Shown piece by piece: positions 53,325 to 54,112 of a stretch of 64,000 nucleotides of DNA. Both the position numbers and the translations under genes were made by a program. Position 1 is the stretch's first letter; each line of letters begins with the position of its first letter. This DNA is from Gammaproteobacteria bacterium (GTDB taxonomy: Bacteria; Pseudomonadota; Gammaproteobacteria; Arenicellales; UBA868), in NCBI GenBank assembly GCA_022450155.1, contig JAKUQR010000008.1, positions 62,001 through 126,000 on the forward strand. The letters run 5' to 3'. The notes beneath the pieces are model-generated. The model searched no databases. It had not been told where the DNA came from and saw only the letters and a list, made by a program, of their open reading frames with translations.

Positions 53325-53759
53325 TCAGGAACGCCGTGGGAGTACAACCACGACACTCTTGGATAGCCGATCATGCCAGGCTCGATTTTGTGGGTCGATG
53401 GCAACCCAGAAAAACCCAAGTCCCAGTGCCAGCCAGGACAACAGTGCGCTCAAGAAGCGGACAACTGCAGTTGACCATGTCAGGTTTTGACCGTCGATAC
53501 GATACAGTTGAAGTCGCCAGGCCCGCATGCCGAGTGTCTGGCCACCATGCGTCCAGAACCAGCCGAAAAATAGGAAACAGACCACGACCAGGTAAATCTG
53601 AATGAGAGCCCGTACCCCGGCAGATGCATCTGCCGCGGACTGAAAAAAAGGCAGTGGAATAGCAGCAACAATCATAACGCCTGCAAGCAGGAACCCGTCG
53701 TACAGCATGGCACCGAGACGCCTGAGCAGACCGGCATGACGCCTACAATCAGAATTCAC
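53325..53759 (-). CDS. RDD family membrane protein
   Basis: The protein has 144 aa. It begins CRRHAGLLRRLGAMLYDGFLLAG, which holds the Arg and Asp (R..D) of the RDD domain, and has three or four hydrophobic helices. GGQTLGMRAWRLQL is the other family motif. It may be a small inner-membrane transporter or accessory protein; RDD proteins have been tied to ion/proton exchange. It lies just downstream of the split tRNA gene on the same strand. Confidence 0.88.
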   Translation of the reverse strand: MNSDCRRHAGLLRRLGAMLYDGFLLAGVMIVAAIPLPFFQSAADASAGVRALIQIYLVVVCFLFFGWFWTHGGQTLGMRAWRLQLYRIDGQNLTWSTAVVRFLSALLSWLALGLGFFWVAIDPQNRAWHDRLSKSVVVVLPRRS

Positions 53760-53812: not shown

Positions 53813-54112
53813 TGGCGCCCCCGGCAAGATTCGAACTTGCGACCTATCGCTTCTTACCACTGCAATTTTCATTGCCAGTCACTCACTGTTTGTGGTCTGG
53901 ACTTTATCTTCACCGCTAGGCTATAGGCCCTTAGGTGCTGCCCGTCAAGTCTCTACACCTTCCCACCCAGTGTGGGCTTGGCTCGGTATTGCCACCACCC
54001 GGAGTGCTGAGGGTTCACCGAGTTTGAGCAGATTCACGCAGGGCGTTTCCGACCCTGGTGCCCAGGTTTGACTCAGGAGGCGATTGCTCTATCCTAGCTG
54101 AGCTACGGGGGC
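53813..54112 (-). tRNA. tRNA-Arg (CCU), split by a group I intron
   Basis: The 5' exon is 54112-54075 on the minus strand: acceptor GCCCCCG, D-arm GCTC...GAGC, anticodon stem ATCGC, then CTCCT ending with the anticodon CCT. The 3' exon is 53852-53813: AA, stem GCGAT, variable AGGTC, T-arm GCAAG-TTCGAAT-CTTGC, acceptor CGGGGGC, G and an encoded CCA. Joined, the loop is CTCCTAA, which is the loop of E. coli tRNA-Arg(CCU). All stems pair perfectly and the mature RNA has 78 bases. Without removing the insert no tRNA forms. An extended -10 lies just upstream. Confidence 0.93.
53853..54074 (-). ncRNA. Group I self-splicing intron (IC3-like, 222 nt) in tRNA-Arg
   Basis: The insert starts after anticodon base U36 and ends with G (53853), as required for group I introns (5' exon ends with U, intron ends with G). 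Conserved cores on the minus strand: GGCAATACCGAGCCAAGCC (53993-53975), AGAGACTTGACGGGC (53954-53940) and GAAGATAAAGTCC (53911-53899), which resemble the Q, R and S elements of the cyanobacterial trnL and Azoarcus introns. P2 (54057-54039) and P9 (53875-53862) are hairpins capped with GAAA tetraloops, as in the Azoarcus ribozyme. No homing endonuclease is encoded. The size is close to the 205-249 nt of the bacterial tRNA introns known in Azoarcus and Agrobacterium. Confidence 0.92.

Follow-up and report, generated by a model that had tools for sequence, protein, structure and literature searches.

A small group I intron without an endonuclease in the tRNA-Arg(CCU) gene of a gammaproteobacterium, and its relatives in the probable order Arenicellales

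Introduction

Small group I introns interrupt the anticodon loop of several bacterial tRNA genes. One of them was reportedly found in the tRNA-Arg(CCU) of Agrobacterium by Reinhold-Hurek and Shub in 1992, and the intron in tRNA-Ile(CAU) of Azoarcus belongs to subgroup IC3. A review names cyanobacteria, alphaproteobacteria and betaproteobacteria as hosts of tRNA group I introns (PMC4033280). A report on Thiomargarita nelsonii adds gammaproteobacterial tRNA genes with such introns, missed by annotation (PMC4853749). The detection of group I introns lies outside the design of tRNAscan-SE 2.0 (PMC8450103).

The intron described here was found in a 64-kb stretch of DNA (the window) that belongs to a marine gammaproteobacterium, probably of the order Arenicellales, in agreement with the gammaproteobacterial host proposed by an earlier, sequence-only reading. 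Contigs with the same sequence as those of relatives in its genus carry the deposited names Acidiferrobacteraceae bacterium NP122 and Ca. Thioglobus MED-G25, and a genome of the order is named Arenicellales bacterium MO_035.B17; these names disagree with one another, and Arenicellales is preferred here. It shares with the Azoarcus intron a compact architecture, GAAA in L2, insertion in the anticodon loop and the lack of an endonuclease. The Azoarcus intron differs in its tRNA and its guide, and the two-branched P9 is that of the window intron. The Agrobacterium intron occupies the same tRNA as the window intron; compared with this alphaproteobacterial type, however, the window intron falls in a separate, gammaproteobacterial CCU clade, in trees that represent this type by CCU introns of Pseudomonadota genomes of another class. 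The introns of T. nelsonii, like the present one, lie in gammaproteobacterial tRNA genes but in other ones, and neither their fold nor their subgroup was determined (PMC4853749).

The interrupted tRNA gene

A tRNA-Arg(CCU) gene was located at 53813-54112 on the minus strand of the window, interrupted by a 222-nt group I intron at 53853-54074, by means of ARAGORN and the Rfam model RF00028 (Intron_gpI). When introns were allowed, ARAGORN called the gene at c[53813,54112] as tRNA-Arg(cct) and placed the 222-nt intron behind gene base 38; in default mode it returned no tRNA anywhere in the 64 kb. The covariance search that the sequence-only reading had suggested gave, under an E-value threshold, a significant match at 53882-54080 on the minus strand (41.3 bits, E = 6.4e-9) over the full model (1-253), the sole RF00028 match in the assembly (3.2 Mb, 77 contigs). 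The gathering score of this model is 50 bits and, therefore, standard Rfam scans overlook the intron; at gathering thresholds zero matches were obtained in the window. It had been predicted that ordinary tRNA finders might miss the gene, and this proved correct for default ARAGORN and also for Rfam. A custom core model (R1), whose training set includes the window sequence, scored the intron at 145.4 bits.

The 5' exon (54075-54112, minus strand) contains the 5' strand of the acceptor stem, the D arm, the 5' strand of the anticodon stem and loop positions 32-36, ending in CCU. The 3' exon (53813-53852, minus strand) contains A37-A38, the 3' strand of the anticodon stem, the variable loop, the T arm, the 3' strand of the acceptor stem and an encoded CCA. 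Both exons were defined by ARAGORN with introns, by a stem check and by comparison with intronless homologues. The acceptor, D, anticodon and T stems pair perfectly, and the coordinates, the 222-base insert and the matched stems given by the earlier reading turned out to be exact. Its view that the intron lacks an endonuclease ORF was also borne out: only one ORF of at least 80 aa overlaps the intron (53853-54074, minus strand), crossing it on the opposite strand, and no homing endonuclease ORF was found within the 222 nt, which are almost wholly taken up by the fold.

Joining 54112-54075 to 53852-53813 generates a 78-nt tRNA with a normal cloverleaf and the anticodon CCU. The resulting anticodon loop, CTCCTAAG, is also found in tRNA-Arg(CCU) genes of the order that naturally lack an intron (e.g. 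L268, L270 and L278), whose loop GCCTCCTAAGCG is identical to that of the joined exons. None of the shifted boundaries yields the same product. This places the intron between positions 36 and 37 of the tRNA, with G as its last base, which agrees with the start after anticodon base 36 and the terminal G noted before. This G, at gene position 260, is invariant across 20 aligned homologous genes.

Fold and covariation of the intron

A group I fold was drawn by hand from the window sequence, comprising P1 to P9 with the P3/P7 pseudoknot, and 85 pairs, tRNA helices included, were tested in an alignment of 20 homologous genes. With the pseudoknot included, 97.6% of the cells were paired, compared with 92.2% in shuffles and with 30-40% for slid partners, a control somewhat biased toward the fold because the fold was derived from the window itself. 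Both sides had changed in 30 of the 85 pairs, against 12.1 +/- 2.1 in shuffles, and most of the doubly changed pairs were supplied by intron helices. These values exclude chance as the origin of the fold.

The helices, all on the minus strand, are arranged as follows. In P1 (54061-54077) the exon CCU (54075-54077) pairs with the internal guide GGG (54061-54063), with a U.G pair at the splice site; the helix is invariant in 20/20 genes. Its core has only three pairs, the extension is in part mismatched, and P10 is weak. P2 (54035-54060) is a hairpin with a GAAA tetraloop, with both sides changed in 6/10 pairs. P3 (spanning 53938-54031) joins 54026-54031 to 53938-53943 as one half of the core pseudoknot and is 100% paired in the 20 genes, with one double-changed pair. 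The P4-P5-P6 domain (53958-54022) contributes two double-changed pairs in P4 and two in P6a. P7, the guanosine-binding site, with the enclosed P8 and J8/7, occupies 53899-53953; P7 is invariant in 20/20 genes and P8 has two double-changed pairs. P9 (53856-53896) has two branches, the second of which, P9b (53862-53875), has a GAAA cap, and P9, P9a and P9b together show eight double-changed pairs. L2 and P9b are thus the two GAAA-capped hairpins that had been noticed from the sequence. P1, P6 and P7 are part of the functional core; being invariant over the 20 genes, they give no covariation evidence. In the minimum-energy fold of the bare intron, computed by a method without pseudoknots, P4 and P7 were not formed (z = -2.0), which is expected for a pseudoknotted RNA, yet gives no support. 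On anatomy alone, the compact core, the GNRA loops in P2 and P9 and the absence of large P5abc/P7 extensions would agree with a possible membership in subgroup IC3.

The RF00028 match, the ARAGORN intron call and the covarying fold confirm that tRNA-Arg(CCU) is interrupted by a group I intron, as had been proposed. Since the Rfam score is under the gathering cut-off, it could be argued that the insert is a spacer or another kind of insertion between tRNA-like halves. The E-value of 6.4e-9, the covarying core, the precise junction and the homologues in many tRNA genes leave this explanation next to no chance of being right, and the covariation test refuted it.

Copy number and proposed splicing

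The RNA-family tRNA search of the genome gave 43 matches. No other CCU gene was found among the 30 tRNA loci and their neighbours examined, in which Arg UCU, UCG and CCG were present. When the spliced tRNA was used as query against the genome, only the two halves of the split gene appeared at high identity. Another intact tRNA-Arg(CCU) serving the cell had been named as evidence that would count against the intron, and the assembly, which at 95.5% completeness could lack one, yielded no second copy. The case for the split gene as the only tRNA-Arg(CCU) of the genome is strong but not final.

Elsewhere in this genome, one contig (C25; L062, ~515-580 and 2515-2580) carries the 3' part of tRNA-Asn(GUU) and the sequence downstream of it twice, at a distance of 2 kb, with agmatinase-like and OsmC-like genes between the copies and the end of an integrase-like ORF beside one of them; the complete tRNA-Asn(GUU) gene is in L005. 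The partial copies look like island attachment sites at tRNA-Asn.

It is very probable that the locus is a single tRNA-Arg(CCU) gene with a small endonuclease-free group I intron that would be spliced to give a normal tRNA. In the transcript, the intron would fold into the P3/P7 pseudoknot core, and a guanosine held in P7 would attack after U36. The freed exon end would then attack after the last intron base, G, joining the exons into the normal 78-nt tRNA-Arg(CCU), which would read AGG. We infer the splicing chemistry, its independence of proteins and the use of the spliced tRNA from the sequence.

Alternatively, the intron may have decayed and lost splicing, leaving a dead tRNA gene and AGG read by wobble. 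A tRNA-Arg(UCU) is present in the genome, on contig C3, and it could in principle read AGG in this way; therefore, the spliced tRNA-Arg(CCU) need not be essential. However, the 20 genes show no variation in P1, P7 or the terminal G, and other helices covary, and within the family the exons are 95-100% identical while the intron goes down to 75%. Conserved exons beside a drifting intron are what selection on the spliced tRNA would produce, and decay is considered highly improbable.

Descent within the family

The intron is present family-wide at one locus, in 25 of 33 genomes, with 75-96% identity among the introns of family members. The core model matched 26 of the 33, one of the matches (G004) being in tRNA-Thr. 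In the family genomes that lack the intron, the spliced-tRNA search found no full-length intronless CCU gene; the full-length matches in them were 77-81% identical and fit other Arg tRNAs. Just downstream of the tRNA and outside the intron lies a gene at 53325-53759 (minus strand), which from its sequence we take to encode an RDD-family membrane protein, and which served as positional marker. Each of the 17 family loci searched (L033-L049) has this gene beside the tRNA, with 37-94% amino-acid identity, and gshB and metH lie further along at many of them. A tRNA-Arg(CCU) of another family (f12, L278) has no intron and is followed, some 400 bases further on, by an RDD homologue (44%); it is probably the same locus without the intron. 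This pattern points to a single gain with vertical inheritance in the family, or to loss among relatives. One genome (G007) has, besides its locus on contig C73 (L036), a second contig (C78, L071) whose start lies within a copy of the intron with 89% identity; a strain mixture or contamination is the likely origin.

The sequence-only reading had left the choice between inheritance and reverse splicing. For this copy, inheritance is supported by the family clade and by synteny with the RDD gene, and recent reverse splicing is not. A recent arrival of the intron, from another lineage or by reverse splicing instead of family descent, would fit the observations that the CCU introns are not one clade (p-AU 0.027), that three other tRNA genes of the order carry introns and that the Leu(UAA) intron of G040 is 77% identical to part of the window intron. 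On the other hand, the window intron clusters with its own family and then with its own order, and the RDD gene adjoins the tRNA in every one of the 17 family loci examined, so that a recent arrival is very improbable. One older gain in the history of the order may have taken place.

Distribution in the order and beyond

The R1 model was trained on CCU, UCU, Thr and Leu introns, after exclusion of the Thr intron L079, which was misplaced by the MAFFT core alignment. It matched 74 of 109 genomes (25/31 genera) in the order, 71 of 369 genomes (63/272 genera) in the class sample and 41 of 398 in the phylum sample. Faint second matches (E ~1e-9 to 1e-6) occurred in class-level genomes. A gammaproteobacterial host had been regarded as an unusual carrier; this does not hold with related tRNA introns in 74/109 genomes of the order and 63/272 genera sampled in the class, and tRNA introns of Beggiatoa and Thiomargarita had already been published (PMC4853749).

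Within the order the hosts are tRNA-Arg(CCU) (36/37), tRNA-Arg(UCU) (34/35), tRNA-Thr(UGU) (36/37) and tRNA-Leu(UAA) (34/35). Up to four introns occur per genome: several genomes of genus g20 have four matches, and locus reading confirmed introns in all four host tRNAs of G087. ARAGORN mislabelled the anticodon in several intron genes (e.g. acg in L037, and Phe or Ser instead of Leu), and these labels were corrected from the exon junctions. A tally of P1 over 171 genes is illustrative only, as the host classifier accepted only genes with G preceding the 3' exon, and chance matches are caught in the search for guides.

Introns of tRNA-Thr(UGU), at 36/37, were observed in L070, L072, L079, L080, L133, L172, L175, L178, L180, L182, L187 and L188. 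They form one clade in the intron tree, with a member (G004) in the window's own family, and no earlier report of a tRNA-Thr(UGU) intron was found in a search of open-licence papers. The tRNA-Arg(UCU) introns at 34/35 (L069, L073-L078, L171, L174, L177, L181, L183 and L186) measure ~210 to 370 nt in the order, and their genes sit in a conserved cluster Pro(UGG)-Arg(UCU)-His(GUG). Other sites were also seen: tRNA-Arg(UCU) introns at 36/37 (L160, L202), a tRNA-Ser(UGA) intron at 34/35 (L134) and a tRNA-Leu(UAA) apparently split at 33/34 (L185).

A pattern scan of named genomes gave 57 records, mostly CCU introns, in marine gammaproteobacteria, Burkholderiales (Variovorax, Cupriavidus, Burkholderia, Herbaspirillum and others), Ferrovum, a Thiobacillaceae MAG and Leptolyngbya; two Nitrospirales matches look like initiator-tRNA introns. 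The CCU-intron pattern had no match in viral contigs. The CCU introns of Pseudomonadota genomes of another class, presumably alphaproteobacteria, have the site and core of the window intron.

Intron trees and possible movement between tRNA genes

Two maximum-likelihood trees were computed from 140 core columns. The bootstrap had not settled and, with few columns and long branches, the deep forks are unreliable. The introns group mainly by host tRNA, and the window intron is placed with its own family, joined next by CCU introns from the order's other families. The hypothesis that all CCU introns form one clade was weakly rejected (p-AU 0.027). The CCU introns of the order occupy at least three places in the tree, L050 being near the CCU introns of the other-class Pseudomonadota. 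Among the latter genomes, Leu(UAA) introns (L149, L152, L158) are found among Arg(CCU) introns (L155, L159, L168, L170), which suggests that an intron may have moved between the two tRNA genes.

A broader reading, to which we give slightly less than an even chance, is that endonuclease-free introns, each with its own guide, colonised four tRNA genes of the order (Arg-CCU, Arg-UCU, Thr-UGU and Leu-UAA) and persisted long in them, with tRNA-Thr(UGU) as a new host and some anticodon-loop sites filled repeatedly, possibly by reverse splicing into new tRNAs. Direct evidence that introns move by reverse splicing is lacking (PMC3984707).

Significance

The window intron is real and its kind of element is already known. 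What the analysis adds is that the intron is one of a widespread set of tRNA introns, under-annotated and unexpectedly common in the order. It accounts for an apparently missing tRNA gene, of a type that routine annotation (plain ARAGORN, Rfam at gathering score) overlooks. Genomes with up to four intron-bearing tRNA genes, their intronless relatives and a likely intronless version of the same locus provide natural material for the long-standing question of how group I introns without an endonuclease persist and move between tRNA genes.
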